Shown: in pieces, positions 2,054 through 28,762 of the stretch
Numbering within the stretch: position 1 is the first letter of the stretch
How the letters are laid out: each line of letters begins with the position of its first letter
NCBI GenBank assembly: GCA_002067705.1
Contig: MVRL01000155.1
Span: forward strand, 1 to 36,927
DNA: 36,927 bases
DNA from: Methanosaeta sp. PtaU1.Bin112
Lineage (GTDB): Archaea > Halobacteriota > Methanosarcinia > Methanotrichales > Methanotrichaceae
Reading direction: 5' to 3'
The notes under the pieces: model-generated
What the model was told of the DNA's origin: nothing
Database searches by the model: none
What the model saw: only the letters and a program-made list of their open reading frames with translations
Made by a program: the position numbers and the translations under genes

Positions 2054-2815
2054 TCATCCTCCGCCCAGCAGCCCCAAAACCTCTTTTCTCATCTCCAGAA
2101 ACGGCCTGCTCATGCTGTCCCTCGGCCTCTCCATCTCTATATTCAGTATTCTCCTCACCATTCCCGGATTGGCGCTCAGGATCACCAGCCTGTCCGCCAG
2201 AAGTATCGCCTCCTCCACACTGTGAGTGACGAGCACTATGGCTTTGGCCGTCTTCTCCTGGATGCGAATTATGTCCGTCTGAATCTGCTTTCTGGTCTGA
2301 GGATCAAGGGCGGAGAACGGCTCGTCCATGAGCAGGAAGGATGGCTCCAGAGCCAGGGCTCTGGCCACCGCTGCCCTCTGCCGCATGCCCCCGGAAAGCT
2401 CATAAGGCCGGCTGTGAGAGCTGCCCTGAAGGCCCACCAGCTCCAGGTACCTCATCGCCTTCTCTTCTCTCTCGCTCCCGGAAACCTTCTGAATCTCCAG
2501 GCCCAAAGAGACATTATCTATCACGCTGCGCCAGGGAAGCAGGGCATGCTCCTGAAAGATCATCCCCATCTTCGTCCTTGCCCCGGGCCTGCTCACCTTC
2601 TTTCCGTCCAGCAGGACCTCTCCTTCCGTCGGCTGATCCAGCCCGGCAATTATCCTGAGCAGAGTGGTCTTGCCGCATCCCGACGGCCCGAGAATGCCCA
2701 CCACCTCCCGATCGTCTATCGTGAGGTTGATATCCTTCAATACCACCTTTGCCACCAGGCTTTTGCCGTCAGCCTGCTCGAAGCTCTTTGTTATTCCCAA
2801 CAGCTGCAGAGTCAT
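2054..2815 (-). CDS. ABC transporter ATPase, nitrate/sulfonate/taurine family
   Basis: 253 residues, energising import of a small anion or sulfur compound with the permease and binding protein encoded just upstream. Visible motifs are Walker A GPSGCGKTT, Q-loop FQEHALLPW, signature LSGGMRQR, Walker B LLMDEPF and the switch histidine in VTHSVEEA. These match SsuB/TauB/NrtD-type ATPases in order and length. The frame is open further upstream, but that part is low-complexity Gly/Arg sequence antisense-like to nothing conserved. I chose the ATG at 2815 because it overlaps the permease stop in an ATGA arrangement, the usual coupling in such operons. Substrate cannot be told from the ATPase. Confidence 0.9.
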   Translation of the reverse strand: MTLQLLGITKSFEQADGKSLVAKVVLKDINLTIDDREVVGILGPSGCGKTTLLRIIAGLDQPTEGEVLLDGKKVSRPGARTKMGMIFQEHALLPWRSVIDNVSLGLEIQKVSGSEREEKAMRYLELVGLQGSSHSRPYELSGGMRQRAAVARALALEPSFLLMDEPFSALDPQTRKQIQTDIIRIQEKTAKAIVLVTHSVEEAILLADRLVILSANPGMVRRILNIEMERPRDSMSRPFLEMRKEVLGLLGGG

Positions 2816-3537
2816 CGCTCTGATGCCCTCCAGGAAAACCATCTTCTCTCCACCGCCATGAAAAAGCGGTCGATCAGTATTCCCAGCAGGCCGATGGCCA
2901 CCATTCCCGCCACCACCACCTGGATCTGCCCCCAGCCATAGGCATACATGATCAGGTACCCTAGGCCTGAGCTGGTGCCGGGCAGCATCTCCGCCGCCAC
3001 CACGCACATCCAGGCGATGCCAAAGCCAACCCTCATCCCGGTCCAGATCTCAGGAGCGCTGCCTGGCAGGATCACCTTGGCAATGAGATCGGCATCATTT
3101 GCCCCCATCATCCAGACCGCCTCCTGCCAGGACCGCTTTACGCTTCTGACTCCCTGCATAGTGCTGAGCAGAATGGGAAAGAATGCACCCAGAGCGATTA
3201 TGAAGACCACCGATGCCAGCCCTATCTTCAGCCAGGCCATTGCCAGAGGAACCCAGGCCAGAGGAGGCACCGGCCGCAGAGCCGAGATCAGTCCCTCAGA
3301 GAGCTCTTTTAATCCCCCCCACTGGCCCATCGCCACCCCCAGGGGCACAGCCAGGAAAGCGGCAATGAGAAATCCCAATGCCACTCTGAATAGGCTCACC
3401 CTGGCGTTTTCCAGAAGAGAGCCGCTGCCCAGGAGATCCGCCGTCGGCATGAGAAGGACTGAGAGGATCGACCCCAAGGTGGGGAGCACAAAGGGATTGT
3501 GAACATATTGAGCCAGAGCCTCCCAAACCACTATCAA
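2812..3537 (-). CDS. ABC transporter permease, nitrate/sulfonate/taurine family
   Basis: About 241 residues with roughly six hydrophobic segments and the EAA-type cytoplasmic loop (EAVWMMGANDADLIAKVILPGSAPEI near 137-162), typical of SsuC/TauC/NrtB permeases. It forms the membrane channel of the importer. The first in-frame standard start is a TTG at 3537, without a clear ribosome binding site. The open frame continues upstream through KLILPLAL, which extends the first hydrophobic helix, and no ATG or GTG is available there. The true start is therefore uncertain: TTG 3537, or an unusual codon closer to the binding-protein stop at 3561. The stop overlaps the ATPase start by three bases. C-terminal length fits the family. 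Confidence 0.85.
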   Translation of the reverse strand: MIVVWEALAQYVHNPFVLPTLGSILSVLLMPTADLLGSGSLLENARVSLFRVALGFLIAAFLAVPLGVAMGQWGGLKELSEGLISALRPVPPLAWVPLAMAWLKIGLASVVFIIALGAFFPILLSTMQGVRSVKRSWQEAVWMMGANDADLIAKVILPGSAPEIWTGMRVGFGIAWMCVVAAEMLPGTSSGLGYLIMYAYGWGQIQVVVAGMVAIGLLGILIDRFFMAVERRWFSWRASER

Positions 3538-3560: not shown

Positions 3561-4883
3561 TTATTGCCTGATGCTTTCCGATGCCTTCACCCCCCGCATA
3601 CCGGATGCATTCAGAGCATCCTGAAATATCACATCAATAATGGTCCCCAAATCCGGATCGCCTATCCGCAGAGGCCTGCCCCGGTCAGAAGAGTCTCTGG
3701 CCAGGGAGACGAAATCATCCCAATCCTCTGCTCCCGATGTCCTGGACAGAACCAGCCCGCAGCCCAAATTCTGCACCGGCTGAAGAATATGAGCATTACA
3801 GCCCAAGCTGATCGATCCGATGGCCGGGGTTATGCCGACGATGGCCATATCCAGGTTGCCCTGCTCCATCAAAGTCATGAGATTCTGTCCGGTTGGAGCA
3901 GATACAAGCTCTACGTCGCAAGCTTTTTGGCCATTCTTCAATAGCTCCAGATACCGAGGCCGCTTGATATCCTCAACCGGCTTCAGTGCAATTGCATATC
4001 TCTCATGGAAATACCGCCAGTTTTTAACTGCGACGAAGAGAGGTGCCTGGTGATCGATCATCAGATATCCGATTCGAAGGCGATTGCCCTCCTGGATGCT
4101 ACAGCTGCTGCCATTGAAGCAATAGTAATGAGGATCTGGAGGATGATGAGAGGAATTATTATGCAGAGAAATCCAATCGGCGGCCCTGCAATAGGGCTCT
4201 AAATCCATAAACTCGGATATCGAAGTATTAAGACCATTATGTTGAGCATTATCTATGGTATTGAGAATATCCCCCATCCGGTCGACCAGTATTTGCGCTG
4301 ATGAATTCCATTCGTCATTTGACTTAGAAGAGAACACGAAACTGTAAAGAGATTGGCTAAAAATATCAATCGGCGAGATGATTCGGCTGCCCAGCAGATA
4401 ATCACGATCTCCCATAAGCCAATCGGCGGTGATCTTCGGCAATTCTTCCGGATGCTCCGCTGCATAGTTGCCTGCTGAGAGAAGAACCGCGCTCAAGGAC
4501 ACGCACATATCAGGACAGTTCTGCAAGAGGTCATCGCTCGCGACCAGAACGCAACATGGATGATTATGCCAAACCCCTTCCGGCGGAAAGTCCTGAGATA
4601 AAGCAACCACCTTGCCTATGCCGCTCATCTCGGCCAGAGACAGATAAGGCTGCCAGGCAATGTAGCCATCTATCTGCCCCGTGGTCAGCAGCACGGGAAG
4701 GATGCTCTGACCCTTGCAGAAGAGCAGCTCAACTTCAGCAACCGCCTTGTCAGTTCCGTCCTCTATTTTTAAAGTACCTTCCACGGAAGATGAAGAAGAA
4801 CAAAAGGAAAGCATAAAGATCAAAAGGGCTGAAGAGATAAGGATTCGGACAAAGCGGCAGGAATTGTGCAGAGCTGCGTTCAT
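3561..4883 (-). CDS. ABC substrate-binding lipoprotein, nitrate/taurine family, halves in permuted order
   Basis: 440 residues from the ATG at 4883, chosen because a TATA-like box lies at 4902-4913, which suits a near-leaderless transcript and would lie inside the longer frame. Residues about 8-28 form a signal peptide ending in a lipobox-like LSFC. The next part (about 35-250) holds GQIDGYIAWQPY and HPCCVLVASDDLL, features normally found in the second half of these binding proteins. Only afterwards, from about residue 280, comes RLRIGYLMIDHQAPLFV, then TGQNLMTLMEQGNLDMAIVG and GDPDLGTIIDVIFQDAL, which normally open the mature protein. Both lobes appear complete but in reversed order, with the break in the hinge. 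It would capture substrate outside the membrane for the downstream permease and ATPase. Alternatives are loss of the first part of a tandem protein or a rare lineage architecture. Confidence 0.82.
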   Translation of the reverse strand: MNAALHNSCRFVRILISSALLIFMLSFCSSSSSVEGTLKIEDGTDKAVAEVELLFCKGQSILPVLLTTGQIDGYIAWQPYLSLAEMSGIGKVVALSQDFPPEGVWHNHPCCVLVASDDLLQNCPDMCVSLSAVLLSAGNYAAEHPEELPKITADWLMGDRDYLLGSRIISPIDIFSQSLYSFVFSSKSNDEWNSSAQILVDRMGDILNTIDNAQHNGLNTSISEFMDLEPYCRAADWISLHNNSSHHPPDPHYYCFNGSSCSIQEGNRLRIGYLMIDHQAPLFVAVKNWRYFHERYAIALKPVEDIKRPRYLELLKNGQKACDVELVSAPTGQNLMTLMEQGNLDMAIVGITPAIGSISLGCNAHILQPVQNLGCGLVLSRTSGAEDWDDFVSLARDSSDRGRPLRIGDPDLGTIIDVIFQDALNASGMRGVKASESIRQ

Positions 4884-4913: not shown

Positions 4914-5076
4914 CAATGCGATCTCAGGCATGGTTCATTCATCATCAGGCCATTTGCAGAATGAATGCCTCAGAATATAATAGCTGCGGAAAGAGGATTG
5001 ATCAGCACAAAGCTTCTGAAAAAAAGGTTCATCAGGGGTCGTTCATCACCCTGACCCATTCAATACCATTGAGCAA

Positions 5077-22450: not shown

Positions 22451-23668
22451 ATGAAGATGATTTACGGTTCAGTTTTGTTTTTCTGCGTGTTCACCTCTTT
22501 GGGGCTGGCAGCCGCCTATCTGGATGTAACGGTTCCGGGAGACGCCAACGGAGACAGGATCATCTCTGCAGAAGAGCTGAAGGCGGCAGAAAAGGATTTG
22601 GGAGATGGAAAGATCAGCTCGGCTGAGCTTGAGAAGATCAAACTCATTCATGAGAGCTATCCCAGGATGATCAATGATTCTGCTGGTAGCGAGATAACCA
22701 TCTATAAGCCCATCGAGCGAATCGCAGTATTGACCACAGAAGATTATGAGATAATGCGCACCCTCAACTGCACAGACAGGATTGTCGCTGCCAGCAAGTA
22801 TGTTGTGCAGAGCAGAGAACAGGGGTGCGGAGACCTCTATACAGATGGCTCCGGCCTGGTCAACATCGGCTCTCCGACATCTTCGCTGGACTGGGAAGCA
22901 TTAATTAAGACTAATCCCGATCTTGTCATAACCTACATGAGCAGCCCTAAACAGGAAGATCTGGATCAAAATCTTAAGGACACCAATACAACCGTGATCC
23001 GTCTGGATTCAGGAAACATATCTCAATACACCGATATCATCAACAAAATGGGCTATCTGCTCGATAGAACGGAGGAGGCCCGGAAATACAATCAGTTCTT
23101 TGATGAAAAGCTTGGCAAGTACCTGAACCAAGTCTCGGAGCTGGCCGACAATGATAAGCCCAGGGTATATCTGGAGGCGGATTTTGGCGGCGGACAGACC
23201 TATTATACCTGCGGCACCGGTCATGCCCACAATGCCCTTCTTGTAGCAGCTGGAGGCAGCAACATATTCTCTGATTTGCAGGGATTCAAACAGGTTGATC
23301 CGGAATCCGTTGCCATGAAGAACCCGGAGATCATCGTGCGATACAAATACCTCAAAGATAGCCCGGGAATAGACAAGGACCTGAGCGATACCTCGGTTCT
23401 TGAGAGCCTGGTTGATGAGATTCTTTCCCGCAACGAGCTGAACCAGACCATTGCAGTCAAAGATAAGAAGGTCTACATGATCACCTGGGACTGCACCAAG
23501 GGCGGAGGAAGATTCTATCTGGGAATGGGCTACTTGGGAAAATGGCTGCAGCCGGAGATCTTCCAGGACTATAGCCCCCGTGAGGCATATCAAGAATACC
23601 TGAACCAGTTCCAGGGTACAGAGGTCGATGTGATCAACAAGGGTGTCTTTGTCTATCCAGAGGCTTGA
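22451..23668 (+). CDS. FecB/BtuF-type substrate-binding protein with N-terminal EF-hand
   Basis: 405 residues: signal peptide (1-22), then a calcium-binding loop DANGDRIISAEE (31-42) of EF-hand or dockerin type, then a second weaker one (DGKISSAEL). The periplasmic-binding fold follows from about 85: RIAVLTTEDYEIMRTLNCTDR, INIGSPTSS-type and NPDLVITYM segments, and a C-lobe with VYLEADFGGG and NPEIIVRY. It captures an iron chelate, corrinoid or similar metal compound for the permease at 23673. The EF-hand addition is known in some methanogen binding proteins and may help attach or stabilise the protein outside the cell. Four bases separate its stop from the permease ATG. Confidence 0.92.
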   Translation: MKMIYGSVLFFCVFTSLGLAAAYLDVTVPGDANGDRIISAEELKAAEKDLGDGKISSAELEKIKLIHESYPRMINDSAGSEITIYKPIERIAVLTTEDYEIMRTLNCTDRIVAASKYVVQSREQGCGDLYTDGSGLVNIGSPTSSLDWEALIKTNPDLVITYMSSPKQEDLDQNLKDTNTTVIRLDSGNISQYTDIINKMGYLLDRTEEARKYNQFFDEKLGKYLNQVSELADNDKPRVYLEADFGGGQTYYTCGTGHAHNALLVAAGGSNIFSDLQGFKQVDPESVAMKNPEIIVRYKYLKDSPGIDKDLSDTSVLESLVDEILSRNELNQTIAVKDKKVYMITWDCTKGGGRFYLGMGYLGKWLQPEIFQDYSPREAYQEYLNQFQGTEVDVINKGVFVYPEA

Positions 23669-23672
23669 GCAA

Positions 23673-24752
23673 ATGTCGTCTGCGTATTCCAAGGAGAAGC
23701 CGGACGCGGATTTGAGAGTGGAGTATCAGAAGTTCATCGGCAGAAAGATGCTCTTTCTCATCTCTCTTGTTTTCGGCATAATTCTGCTCGCGGGCTATGC
23801 GGCCACGCGAGGTTCGGCTGATATCAGCGTTATTGATGTATACACAACCATTATAGCCAAATTCCTGCCGGGCCAATTTGAGACCACCTGGTTTTCTGAT
23901 ACGATCGTCTGGGGACTTCGACTGCATCGTATTCTTCTGGCCATAGTAGGCGGTATCGGTCTTGCCATAGCCGGGGCGGTAATGCAGGGCATTCTTAAAA
24001 ATCCCCTGGCGAGCCCCTTCACATTGGGCATAGCATCTGCAGCAGGATTTGGCGCCGCTCTGGCCATAGTCCTGGGCGCAGGATTTGTGGGAGGAGAGTA
24101 TCTCATCGTAGGCAATGCTTTCATATTCACTCTTATCGCAACCTTGAGCATCTATGGCCTGGCAAAGTACAAGGGAATCACACCCGAGACCATGATCCTG
24201 GCGGGCATAGCCATCATGTACCTCTTCTCTGCCATGACCTCCTTTTTGCAGTACATCGGGCATGCAGAGCAGGTTCAAGAGGTGGTCTTCTGGATGATGG
24301 GCTCGCTTGGAAGGTCATCATGGGATAAGGTCTGGGTGGTAGCTGCAGTCATTGTTGCCTGTTTTCCCTATCTTCTCCTCAAATCGTGGGATATCAATGC
24401 CCTTGGAGCGGGGGATGAGACTGCCAAGAGCCTGGGAGTGGATGTAGAGAAGACCCGCGTGGTCTGCATGGTTCTGGTCGCGCTCATCACGGCGAGCGTG
24501 ATCTGTTTTACCGGAACCATCGGCTTCATCGGCCTTGTTGCCCCCCACATCACGCGCATGGTGATCGGAGGGGACCACAGGTTCCTGCTCCCGGCTTCCG
24601 CACTGGTGGGAGGGCTCTTGCTGCTGGCCGCAGATACCGTGGCGAGAACTATAATGGCGCCTGTGATTCTGCCCGTAGGAATAATGACTTCCTTCCTGGG
24701 AGTTCCGTTCTTCGTCTATCTGTTCATGCGCCGGAAGAAGCAGTTCTGGTAA
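23673..24752 (+). CDS. FecCD/BtuC-type importer permease
   Basis: 359 residues, about ten transmembrane helices. Family markers: GLRLHRILLAIVGGIGLAIA, MQGILKNPLASPFTLGI, GFIGLVAPHITRMVIGGDHR and LAADTVART. The ATG at 23673 is chosen over the one at 23643 because it lies just after the binding-protein stop; the longer form would overlap that gene. This protein forms the channel of a type II importer. No ATPase gene follows: the next gene is cobN. The FecE/BtuD-like ATPase at 12372 is the closest candidate in the window. Confidence 0.92.
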   Translation: MSSAYSKEKPDADLRVEYQKFIGRKMLFLISLVFGIILLAGYAATRGSADISVIDVYTTIIAKFLPGQFETTWFSDTIVWGLRLHRILLAIVGGIGLAIAGAVMQGILKNPLASPFTLGIASAAGFGAALAIVLGAGFVGGEYLIVGNAFIFTLIATLSIYGLAKYKGITPETMILAGIAIMYLFSAMTSFLQYIGHAEQVQEVVFWMMGSLGRSSWDKVWVVAAVIVACFPYLLLKSWDINALGAGDETAKSLGVDVEKTRVVCMVLVALITASVICFTGTIGFIGLVAPHITRMVIGGDHRFLLPASALVGGLLLLAADTVARTIMAPVILPVGIMTSFLGVPFFVYLFMRRKKQFW

Positions 24753-24875
24753 AGCTGCAATGAATGCGGCTTCCAGCAATACGGACAAAGCGCCGAGGTC
24801 CTGATCAACCTCAAATTTTTTTAATTAAGATCTCTTTTTGATTAACATCATAATCGAAATAGTTAATACTAGGAA

Positions 24876-24884
24876 CATATAAAA
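24876..24884 (+). promoter_or_regulatory. TATA box for cobN
   Basis: CATATAAAA lies about 100 bases before the cobN ATG. Initiation near 24905-24910 would give a leader of about 75-80 bases containing the small hairpin TGGGC-CGCA-GCCCA (24938-24951). GAAGGAG at about 24974-24980 is the ribosome site. cobN therefore probably has its own promoter even though it follows the permease. Confidence 0.5.
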
Positions 24885-24985
24885 CTATGAATTTAGTGAT
24901 AAAATATGACCATGTCAAGAATGCATAAGACTGGTTTTGGGCCGCAGCCCAGGGGCCAGAGACGTTCAATCGAGAAGGAGCGATC

Positions 24986-27900
24986 ATGATCCTCACCTGC
25001 CTTGTGGGCAATTCATATTTGCAGATCATCTCCAAGGCCTGCAAGAGCCTTGGATTTGACCTGAGGCTGTTTTCCACCCAACGGCTGAATGATCAGCCCG
25101 AGATGATAGATGATGCGATAAAGGCCATGGAGCAATCGGATCTCATCTTCACCCATAGGGGCAGCGAGGCCCTCTGGGACGAGATCGAGCCAAAGATGAG
25201 CGAGATCAAGAAGCGCACACCAACCGTATGCCTCGGATATGATCAATCGTACTGGCTGAACTCATCAGCTCCGGCGAGGGTTGTGGTCACGGCCAATGCC
25301 TACCTCACCTACGGAGGAGAAGACAACATCAGCAACATGCTCCTCTATCTCTGCCGGGAGCTGCTTTCTATGGATGTGACTGCCAAACCGCCCACCCCCA
25401 TGCCCTGGGAAGGGGCATACCATCCGGATGCGCCGAGCCACTTTAATAGTGTCGAGGACTATCTCAAGTGGTACGAGCCGGACGACTGCCCAACGGTAGG
25501 GTTGCTCTTCTCCCGTTTCTACTGGGTAAACCGAAATCTGGCTGTGGAGGACGAGCTGATCCGTGCCCTGGAAAGAGAGGGGTGCAATGTCATCCCGGTA
25601 TTTTCATATTCCGTAAAGGACGCGGATCTCGGCACCAGGAGCATGGCAGAAGTGGTCTCGGACTACTTCGTGCCAGCAGGCAGGCCTGGAATCGATGCCA
25701 TGGTAAAGACCTCCCCCTTCTTCCTGGGACAGGACAGAAGCAACATGGGCGAGGCAAAAGGGAATAAGACCGGCATCGCGCTCCTCAAAGCTCTAAACGT
25801 GCCTGTATTTGAGCCGGTTCTCTCCAATCACATGACCCTGGAGGAGTGGGAGGACGGCATCGGTCTTTCCAATGATATCGGCTGGGGAGTGGCCATGCCG
25901 GAGTTTGAGGGAATGATCGAGCCCATCATCATCAGCGCCGGCTACCGGAAAGGTGATTATGAGGAGCGGACGCCCATCTCTGAGCGCTGCGCGAAACTTG
26001 CCAAAAGAGTTAAGAATTGGATCGATCTGGCGAGAAAGCCTGCAATCGATAGGAAAGTGGCTTTTATCTTCCACAACAATCCTTGCGTCTCAGTAGAAGC
26101 CGCAGTGGGCGGCGGTGCGCACCTGGATACGATAGAGAGCGTAGCACTTATTATGAATAGGATGGCCGCAGCGGGCTACTCTCTGGATGGTGTCCCGGCT
26201 ACCGGAAAGGAGCTCATTAACACCATCATGGACCGAAAGGCCATCTCAGAGTTCCGCTGGACGCCTATTGAGGAGATTGTGGCCAAAGGTGGTGTCCTGG
26301 CCTATCAGACCAAAGAGGAGTACGAAGAGTGGTTCAACACGCTCACTCCCAGGGTAAAGGACCGCGTCTGCGAAGCCTGGGGCAATCCCCCAGGAGAGCT
26401 TAAGAACGACATTCCTGCCGCCATGCTCTACCAGGGCAAGATCGTGATCACCGGAGTTCAGTATGGCAATACGGTAGTCTGCGTTCAGCCCAAACGTGGC
26501 TGCGCCGGAGCTCGCTGCGACGGCCAGGTATGCAAGATCCTGCACGACCCGGATGTCCCTCCCACCCACCAGTACATGGCCACCTACCGCTACCTTGAGG
26601 AAGTTTTTGGTGCGGATGTGCTCATCCACGTGGGCACACATGGCAACGTTGAGTTCCTTCCTGGAAAAGGAGTGGGCCTGTCCAGGAACTGCTATCCTGA
26701 TATCTGCATCGGCACCGTTCCCCATCTTTACATCTACAACGCCGACAATCCGCCCGAGGGGACCATCGCCAAGAGGCGCAGCTATGCGACTCTCGTAGAC
26801 CACATGCAGACCGTGATGACCCAGTCAGGTCTTTACGATGAGCTGCTGGAGGTGGACCGGCTGCTGGGAGAATATGAGACTGCCAAATTCGATCACTCCC
26901 GCTCTCATGAGCTGAGGCACCTGCTCATCGATGCCATAAAAGCTGCCAACCTCGACAAGGGCATGAAGCTCGCCGACGACATGCCTTTGGAAGAGATTGT
27001 CACAAAGGCGCACAATCAGCTCAGCCGGGTCAGAAACACCCAGATCGACTCCGGCATGCACATCTTTGGCCAGCTTCCTGAGGGCGAAAAGCGAGTCGAG
27101 TTCATCAACTCTGTAATGCGCTTCGAGGGAAGCGGTGTTCCGCTGCGCAGCACAGTCGCAGCCATGATGGGCCTATCCATGGAAGAGCTGCTGGCCGACC
27201 AGGGATCGGTAAACGAGCGCTACGGCAAGTCGCACGGACAGCTTCTGGAGAGAATCGACAGCCTTTCCAAGAAGCTCATCGATATGTACCTGCAGGGCGA
27301 CGGAGCGAAGCCTGACGAGGTCCTGGGCCTTTCCACGGCTGGCTATGAGGGCCAACTGAAGGCAATTCGGGAGAAGGTGATCGATCTGCAGACCCGGATG
27401 GAGGCCTCAAAGGAGATTGAGGCACTATTCAACGGCATGGACGGAGGTTACGTCGAGGCCGGACCCAGCGGCCTGATCACCCGGGGCAGAGATGATGTCC
27501 TTCCAACAGGAAGAAACTTCTACTCTCTGGACCCCTACCGAGTTCCCACCAAGACCTCCTGGAAGGTTGGACAGAAGCTGGGCAGGTCCGTGATTGCCAA
27601 GCACCAGAAGGAGGAGGGCCGATACCCCGAGAACATCGCATTCTTCTGGATGTGCAATGACATCATGTGGGCCGACGGAGAGGACATGTCCCAGATGCTC
27701 TTCCTCCTGGGCACTGAGCCGGTGTGGCTCTCCAACGGACGGCTGAAGGGCTTCAAGGTGCTCCCGCTAGAGGAGCTGGGCCGGCCCAGGATCGACCTGA
27801 CCATCAGAGTCTCGGGCATCACCAGGGACAACTTCCCCAATTGCATCGACACTATCGATGAAGCAGTGCAGGCGGTGGTCGTCAGAAAGCACACTCTGGC

Positions 27901-28762
27901 CAATTTGGAAAACGGCACTGCCAAGGACTGGAGAGAAGCAACGCTGAGAATCTTCGCCAGCAAGCCGGGCACCTATCAGTCCGGCACAAATTTGGCGGTC
28001 TACGCCAGCGCCTGGAAGGACGAGAAGGATCTCTCTGACATCTTCGTCTACTGGAACGGCTATGCCTACGGAAAAGGGGTGGCAGGGAAGGAGTCGCACC
28101 AGCATTTCGTAAACACCCTCAAGAACGTCGATGTGACCTACAACAAGGTGGTCAGCGATGAGTACGACCTCTTCGGATGCTGCTGCTACTTCGGTACACA
28201 CGGCGGCATGACTGCCGCTGCCAGGCACCTGTCCGGAAAGGATGTAAAGGCTTACTACGGAGACACCCGCGAGCCAGAGCACGTCGAGGTGCGGGATCTG
28301 GCTGATGAGGTCCGGCGGGTCGTCAGGACAAAGCTGCTAAATCCGAAATGGATCGAGGGGATGAAGCAGCACGGCTACAAGGGAGCAGGCGATATCTCCA
28401 AGCGCGTTGGCCGGGTCTACGGCTGGGAGGCGACGACCCAGGAGGTTGACGACTGGATCTTCGACGATATCACCAAGACCTTCATAATGGATGAGGAGAA
28501 CCGCAAGTTCTTCGAGGAGAACAATCCCTGGGCTATGGAGGAGATGGCCAGAAGGCTGATTGAGGCAGAGCAGAGGGGATTGTGGAAGGCCGATCCTGAG
28601 GTTTTAGATGCTCTGAAGTCCACATATCTTGAGATCGAGGGCTGGATGGAAGAGAGGATGGGAGATGTCGAAGGCGAGTTTCAGGGCGGAGCGATCGATG
28701 TGATCACTGCAGATGAGGTGGCGGCCTGGAAGGAAAAGATGGCCAAGGTGATCGGAGCGTAG
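24986..28762 (+). CDS. cobN: CobN: large subunit of cobaltochelatase-type enzyme
   Basis: 1258 residues, the normal length for CobN. Diagnostic stretches include HVGTHGNVEFLPGKGVGLS (about residue 548), NADNPPEGTIAKRRSYATLV soon after, and CCYFGTHGGMTAAARHLSG (about 1063). CobN is the catalytic subunit that holds the tetrapyrrole while the AAA+/VWA motor (20035-22083) drives ATP-dependent metal insertion. In aerobic bacteria the substrate is hydrogenobyrinate diamide. Methanogens make corrinoids by the early-cobalt route with a small CbiX-type chelatase, so the role of CobN in an anaerobe is unsettled; possibilities are corrinoid remodelling, another metal, or another tetrapyrrole. Its place after a FecB/FecCD importer ties it to metal or corrinoid uptake. 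The sequence is intact throughout. Confidence 0.96.
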   Translation: MILTCLVGNSYLQIISKACKSLGFDLRLFSTQRLNDQPEMIDDAIKAMEQSDLIFTHRGSEALWDEIEPKMSEIKKRTPTVCLGYDQSYWLNSSAPARVVVTANAYLTYGGEDNISNMLLYLCRELLSMDVTAKPPTPMPWEGAYHPDAPSHFNSVEDYLKWYEPDDCPTVGLLFSRFYWVNRNLAVEDELIRALEREGCNVIPVFSYSVKDADLGTRSMAEVVSDYFVPAGRPGIDAMVKTSPFFLGQDRSNMGEAKGNKTGIALLKALNVPVFEPVLSNHMTLEEWEDGIGLSNDIGWGVAMPEFEGMIEPIIISAGYRKGDYEERTPISERCAKLAKRVKNWIDLARKPAIDRKVAFIFHNNPCVSVEAAVGGGAHLDTIESVALIMNRMAAAGYSLDGVPATGKELINTIMDRKAISEFRWTPIEEIVAKGGVLAYQTKEEYEEWFNTLTPRVKDRVCEAWGNPPGELKNDIPAAMLYQGKIVITGVQYGNTVVCVQPKRGCAGARCDGQVCKILHDPDVPPTHQYMATYRYLEEVFGADVLIHVGTHGNVEFLPGKGVGLSRNCYPDICIGTVPHLYIYNADNPPEGTIAKRRSYATLVDHMQTVMTQSGLYDELLEVDRLLGEYETAKFDHSRSHELRHLLIDAIKAANLDKGMKLADDMPLEEIVTKAHNQLSRVRNTQIDSGMHIFGQLPEGEKRVEFINSVMRFEGSGVPLRSTVAAMMGLSMEELLADQGSVNERYGKSHGQLLERIDSLSKKLIDMYLQGDGAKPDEVLGLSTAGYEGQLKAIREKVIDLQTRMEASKEIEALFNGMDGGYVEAGPSGLITRGRDDVLPTGRNFYSLDPYRVPTKTSWKVGQKLGRSVIAKHQKEEGRYPENIAFFWMCNDIMWADGEDMSQMLFLLGTEPVWLSNGRLKGFKVLPLEELGRPRIDLTIRVSGITRDNFPNCIDTIDEAVQAVVVRKHTLANLENGTAKDWREATLRIFASKPGTYQSGTNLAVYASAWKDEKDLSDIFVYWNGYAYGKGVAGKESHQHFVNTLKNVDVTYNKVVSDEYDLFGCCCYFGTHGGMTAAARHLSGKDVKAYYGDTREPEHVEVRDLADEVRRVVRTKLLNPKWIEGMKQHGYKGAGDISKRVGRVYGWEATTQEVDDWIFDDITKTFIMDEENRKFFEENNPWAMEEMARRLIEAEQRGLWKADPEVLDALKSTYLEIEGWMEERMGDVEGEFQGGAIDVITADEVAAWKEKMAKVIGA

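Follow-up and report, generated by a model that had tools for sequence, protein, structure and literature searches.

The gene at positions 3561 to 4883 (minus strand) of the window, by which we mean the whole 36,927-nucleotide stretch of DNA from a methane-producing archaeon analyzed here, very probably encodes a natural circular permutant that acts as the binding protein of an ABC importer. Its chain begins with the half that closes canonical SsuA/TauA/NrtA-type proteins (half B) and ends with the half that opens them (half A). Computation established this order, its conservation, the pocket motifs shared with canonical proteins, and the operon, and the permuted order was found in at least 89 archaeal genomes with 15 family codes of the phylum. 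ABC binding proteins are rarely permuted in nature, and such cases have usually come to light singly, from crystal structures. No description of permuted SsuA/TauA/NrtA-type proteins was found in the open-access literature and no NCBIfam model names a permuted family; it seems that this type has not been described before.

Gene and order of the halves

The open reading frame (ORF) spans positions 4931 to 3561 of the minus strand and encodes 456 residues. The ATG at 4883, which is the start in homologues, corresponds to residue 17 here, where a 49-row alignment shows an almost invariant Met; judged from this alignment it is the probable true start, giving a protein of about 440 residues, and it coincides with the end coordinate in the initial annotation. 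Residues 17 to 43 (4803 to 4883, minus strand) form a signal or membrane-anchor segment with a lipobox-like LSFC and Cys44. The homologues have clear AGC lipoboxes (consensus of the permuted profile A3).

Half B, equivalent to the C-terminal half of canonical proteins, occupies residues 65 to 259 (4155 to 4739, minus strand) and runs from the second part of lobe II (GQIDGYIAWQP) through a hinge near W121-H124 into the C-terminal part of lobe I (HPCC onward). A linker at residues 260 to 283 (4083 to 4154, minus strand), whose letters and length differ among homologues, joins the old C terminus to the old N terminus. Half A, equivalent to the N-terminal half of canonical proteins, follows at residues 284 to 449 (3585 to 4082, minus strand), with the N-terminal part of lobe I (RIGYL, GITPA), a crossing near N388-C391, and the first part of lobe II (GTIID). 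The motifs on which the initial annotation was based are all found in the translated ORF in the order claimed: GQIDGYIAWQPY at residues 85 to 96, HPCCVLVASDD at 124 to 134, RIGYLMIDHQAPLF at 286 to 299, MEQGNLDMAIVG at 355 to 366, and DLGTIIDVIF at 427 to 436.

Evidence for circular permutation

The Pfam profile NMT1_2 (PF13379) matches the window protein in two stretches, with a whole-protein E value of 5.7e-20 and a score of 72.6 bits against a curated cutoff of 24.7, so the motif resemblance is not due to chance. The C-terminal part of the profile (positions 166 to 242) falls at residues 80 to 162. A whole-genome search placed profile positions 166 to 242 at 4446-4694 and positions 4 to 148 at 3597-4091, each separately above the cutoff. 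Both halves of the profile are present in the protein, and the canonical order, with the N-terminal half first, is absent. The inversion is seen as well against PDB 3un6, where query residues 278 to 335 align with chain residues 30 to 86 and query residues 77 to 144 with chain residues 176 to 238.

Rotation scoring with HMMER was uninformative because domains are summed in any order, and we therefore took the best single collinear Smith-Waterman score against a profile of 27 canonical-order relatives, with the query rotated every 12 residues. The window protein scored 93 bits as written and 132 bits once opened in the linker; shuffled sequences averaged 15 to 17 bits. Six other permuted proteins behaved in the same way (L085 rose from 110 to 188 bits), and two canonical controls scored best unrotated. 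Against PDB chains, rotation of the window sequence brought only a small gain because the sequence is too divergent. The clear case is the homologue L116, which covers residues 23 to 208 of the TauA chain in one stretch when rotated and residues 23 to 119 only in its natural order. After rotation, 46 conserved columns are common to permuted and canonical proteins across both halves, among them GxxP(A), NxGS, GTIQD, IDG, W, and CC. The circular permutation first proposed from motif order is thus borne out: both halves are complete, the rotated sequence is collinear with canonical proteins, and homologues share the order.

Predicted structure and position of the cut

An AlphaFold2 model built from 10 rows was poor (pLDDT 53), but 80 rows, all of permuted proteins, gave a confident model with a pLDDT of 89.3 and a pTM of 0.82. 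Confidence is low at residues 45 to 60, just past the signal, and around the linker at residues 221 to 240 and 261 to 280, with a pLDDT of 62 to 64 in the latter segment. The top match to the model in VIA-align was Bacillus subtilis OpuAC (2b4l), with Z of 8.4 to 8.7 over about 202 residues (model residues 64 to 409), where 8.7 is a modest value near the level that the tool flags as a possible common arrangement. Canonical binding proteins ranked below it, SsuA (2x26) for example with Z of 7.4 over 178 residues. Foldseek returned no match to the model at an E value of 0.001, which is what a sequential search would be expected to give for a permuted chain but is no proof by itself. The structure prediction that had been proposed as a check yields a confidently modeled fold resembling that of substrate-binding proteins, with no sign of a fold other than the two-lobe one.

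In TauA, domain I comprises residues 23 to 104 plus 202 to 319, and domain II comprises residues 105 to 201 (PMC6906117). Mapped through the L116-TauA alignment, with a residue offset of 21 counted by hand from Gly61, Gly79, Glu106, and Thr132, the end of half A and the start of half B lie at about TauA residues 147 to 150, in the middle of domain II. On this mapping, lobe I is continuous here but split in TauA, and lobe II is split between the termini here but continuous in TauA. Very probably the linker joined the ancestral ends, and the new termini were created within lobe II. Because the cut lies within domain II, it is the halves of the chain that are swapped and not the lobes; the description of the protein in the initial annotation as having its lobes in swapped order holds for the chain halves, which are reversed, but not for the lobes themselves. 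Nor does the protein end at the hinge, as had been suggested, since it runs about 55 residues beyond the crossing from lobe I to lobe II and stops in lobe II.

Distribution among homologues

Homologues were searched for at the genus, class, and phylum levels, and the order of the halves was then checked for each ORF. This gave 135 permuted reads (129 BA and 6 BAA) versus 38 in the AB order; some of the 135 are one gene fetched in overlapping loci, and the second A match in the six BAA reads is a weak fragment of the one A half. The cut point is identical in every permuted member read. The matches listed include no permuted gene from a genome of family f7. The survey confirmed that the permuted order is real, and the protein turned out to belong to a widespread, conserved family instead of being an oddity of one genome. 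Canonical paralogues are kept alongside the permuted gene in the same genome (L103, L104, and L106). Plasmid-borne bacterial relatives gave the top 30 matches all in two pieces, and the five that were opened all have the canonical order. The SsuA family model TIGR01728 scores the window protein at 55.4 bits, under the NCBIfam cutoff of 163.5, and the permuted order accounts for automatic annotation splitting or under-scoring these proteins.

Two irregular genes were seen in the survey. The permuted gene at L015:1477-2505 (G014) keeps its first 186 or so codons, followed by unrelated sequence, and is either broken or misassembled. A canonical paralogue in the genome of the window (C181:26335-26948, minus strand; L002/L005) consists of two overlapping ORFs, a 177-residue N half and a 205-residue C half; the same split is found in L023 (G022), reflecting a frameshifted gene or recoding.

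Operon context and possible ligand

An ABC permease gene (BPD_transp_1; 2812 to 3537, minus strand) lies directly downstream and is kept beside the permuted gene, and an ABC ATPase gene at 2054 to 2830 (minus strand) belongs to the same operon; both adjoin the permuted gene in the window and in most loci. With its signal or anchor segment and these neighbors, the protein has the features of an ABC importer binding protein, and it very probably serves an SsuABC/TauABC-type importer in that extracytoplasmic role. A divergently read HTH gene recurs beside the permuted operon in f6, f10, f17, f33, and f35. The permease gene at L009:2850-3553 (G020) is broken into two frames.

Aligned through L116 with the hand-counted offset, TauA residues Gly61, Gly79, Thr132, and Trp176 correspond to G348, G366, T430, and W93 of the window protein, so that all three positions of the TauA backbone sulfonate contacts (Gly61, Gly79, and Thr132) are matched. 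Two TauA ligand positions are lost (Glu106 to Cys or Ser, and Asp205 to Cys). The Gln30 contact falls outside the aligned L116-TauA stretch, at a site where permuted proteins have GYL and canonical Methanothrix proteins GYQ. As an alignment, the correspondence of the four residues agrees with a sulfonate ligand. The two-lobe pocket would have been rebuilt from the same conserved motifs, and for that reason we infer that lobe closure should capture a small anionic solute, which the protein would then deliver to the neighboring permease and ATPase.

The likeliest ligand, put forward here as a tentative best guess, would be a sulfonate such as coenzyme M (CoM) or a precursor. This guess draws on CoM biosynthesis genes at two loci, with ComB-ComDE just upstream in L158 (f11) and cysteate synthase-ComDE just upstream in L169 (f31), each leading directly into the permuted operon, and on Methanosarcina acetivorans, in which CoM starvation changes the expression of ssuA and ssuC along with that of cs and comDE, and in which the authors regard ssuA and ssuC as encoding a CoM-specific ABC transporter (PMC12068725). 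CoM genes adjoin the permuted operon in only 2 of about 55 loci examined, and the window is not among them. Ligands of permuted proteins may differ between loci, since in L165:1-3296 (f10) the permuted operon comes after genes for a corrinoid protein, an AcsV-like activator, and an MtrH-family methyltransferase, a hint that the ligand at this locus is methylated. The locus L169:115-5931 holds in one run cysteate synthase, ComDE, a signal-less canonical NMT1-type protein, the permuted protein, the permease, and the ATPase.

Alternative explanations and origin of the permutation

Loss of the first part from a three-part A-B-A protein would likewise leave B and then A behind a signal peptide, but none of the fetched homologue ORFs has a leading A half, bar that of a single canonical protein whose second match scores a weak 9 bits. 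Six-frame translation of 130 upstream stretches showed no A half except in a separate, complete canonical gene at one locus (L169/L123), and no B half was found in 132 stretches downstream of permuted genes. With no clear A-B-A homologue among those fetched, this explanation is exceedingly improbable. An assembly or annotation artefact, which might be suspected in a 200-contig draft such as the window genome, is next to inconceivable given the same order in 89 genomes, including some in one or two contigs (e.g., G362, G397, G409, and G441). The protein might also be a sensory receptor that feeds a signaling protein and not a transport protein, as genomes of f4 and f6 carry a second permuted paralogue directly 3' of genes for a dCache histidine kinase and a receiver-HTH protein, without a permease nearby (L083, L084, L089, L091, L174, L175, and others). 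This placement suggests a sensing role for the second paralogue, but the adjoining permease and ATPase make such a role improbable for the window protein and most members, for which we retain the reading as a transport protein.

Canonical order is the ancestral state, and the permuted one probably goes back to a single event in a forerunner of these archaea, by a route that may have been tandem duplication with trimming. Quick unconstrained trees require the order to change twice, as though the permuted order had arisen at least twice, once in the Methanothrix-type proteins and once in a second clade. A single permuted clade is nonetheless not rejected (p-AU 0.5), and the one-clade tree has the higher likelihood when bacterial outgroups are added (p-AU 0.649), so one origin is favored; the common cut point likewise speaks against repeated origins, which we consider unlikely. 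We give about the same low weight to fission and re-fusion of separately encoded halves, possibly from different paralogues, in place of tandem duplication with trimming. The split paralogue of the window genome, divided near the same point into A-type and B-type ORFs, would speak for such a route, but it looks like a frameshift, and permuted proteins form the same two clades in separate half-A and half-B trees, as expected if the halves moved together.

Relation to other binding proteins

Permuted ABC binding proteins are already known elsewhere, and what seems new here is permutation within the SsuA/TauA/NrtA-type family. Members of that family (PF13379, TIGR01728; TauA, PDB 6ssy) share the pocket motifs and the type of permease and ATPase with the window protein, but have their halves in the opposite order, the new termini of the window protein lying in lobe II. 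The CoM-specific SsuABC of M. acetivorans is likewise an SsuA-family importer in a methanogen (PMC12068725), and its SsuA is presumably canonical in order. Glycine-betaine binding proteins, including 2b4l, have been reported to be related to other class II binding proteins by circular permutation (PMC2395249). OpuAC, from this glycine-betaine/molybdate permutation family, is like the window protein a permuted class II binding protein, and the structural match between them is sequential over most of the model length; it differs in its sequence family and ligand, with about 12 to 13% identity. TpMglB-2 of Treponema pallidum, a permuted Type I sugar-binding protein termed “Type Ic/Cluster Bc” (PMC4990184), is also a natural, membrane-anchored, circularly permuted ABC binding protein, and it retains binding. 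It has a sugar-binding Type I fold and comes from an unrelated sequence family, the window protein belonging by sequence to NMT1_2, which is not a sugar-binding family; unlike in the window protein, only N-lobe strands are shifted to the C terminus, adding a fourth lobe crossing. TpMglB-2 is absent from the structure matches listed, which excludes nothing.

A broader reading, which as a whole we regard as doubtful, is that a single ancient event gave rise to a separate class of class II binding proteins, inherited vertically in methanogens and their relatives and used for CoM or sulfonate uptake, with altered docking on the permease and a sensor-kinase role in one branch. If so, having the membrane anchor on lobe II and no longer on lobe I would change how the binding protein docks on the permease, and in one branch the permutation would let a binding protein serve a sensor kinase. 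Apart from this broader reading, the operon is a candidate CoM or sulfonate uptake system in methane-cycling archaea. The large conserved set of permuted proteins, with canonical paralogues in the same genomes, makes the origin, cost, and benefit of the re-cut testable.

Elsewhere in the window, a gene for a 530-residue protein with pentapeptide repeats lies at 326-1918, and genes for a different binding protein (Peripla_BP_2), a FecCD permease, and a CobN-type chelatase lie together at 22451-28762.
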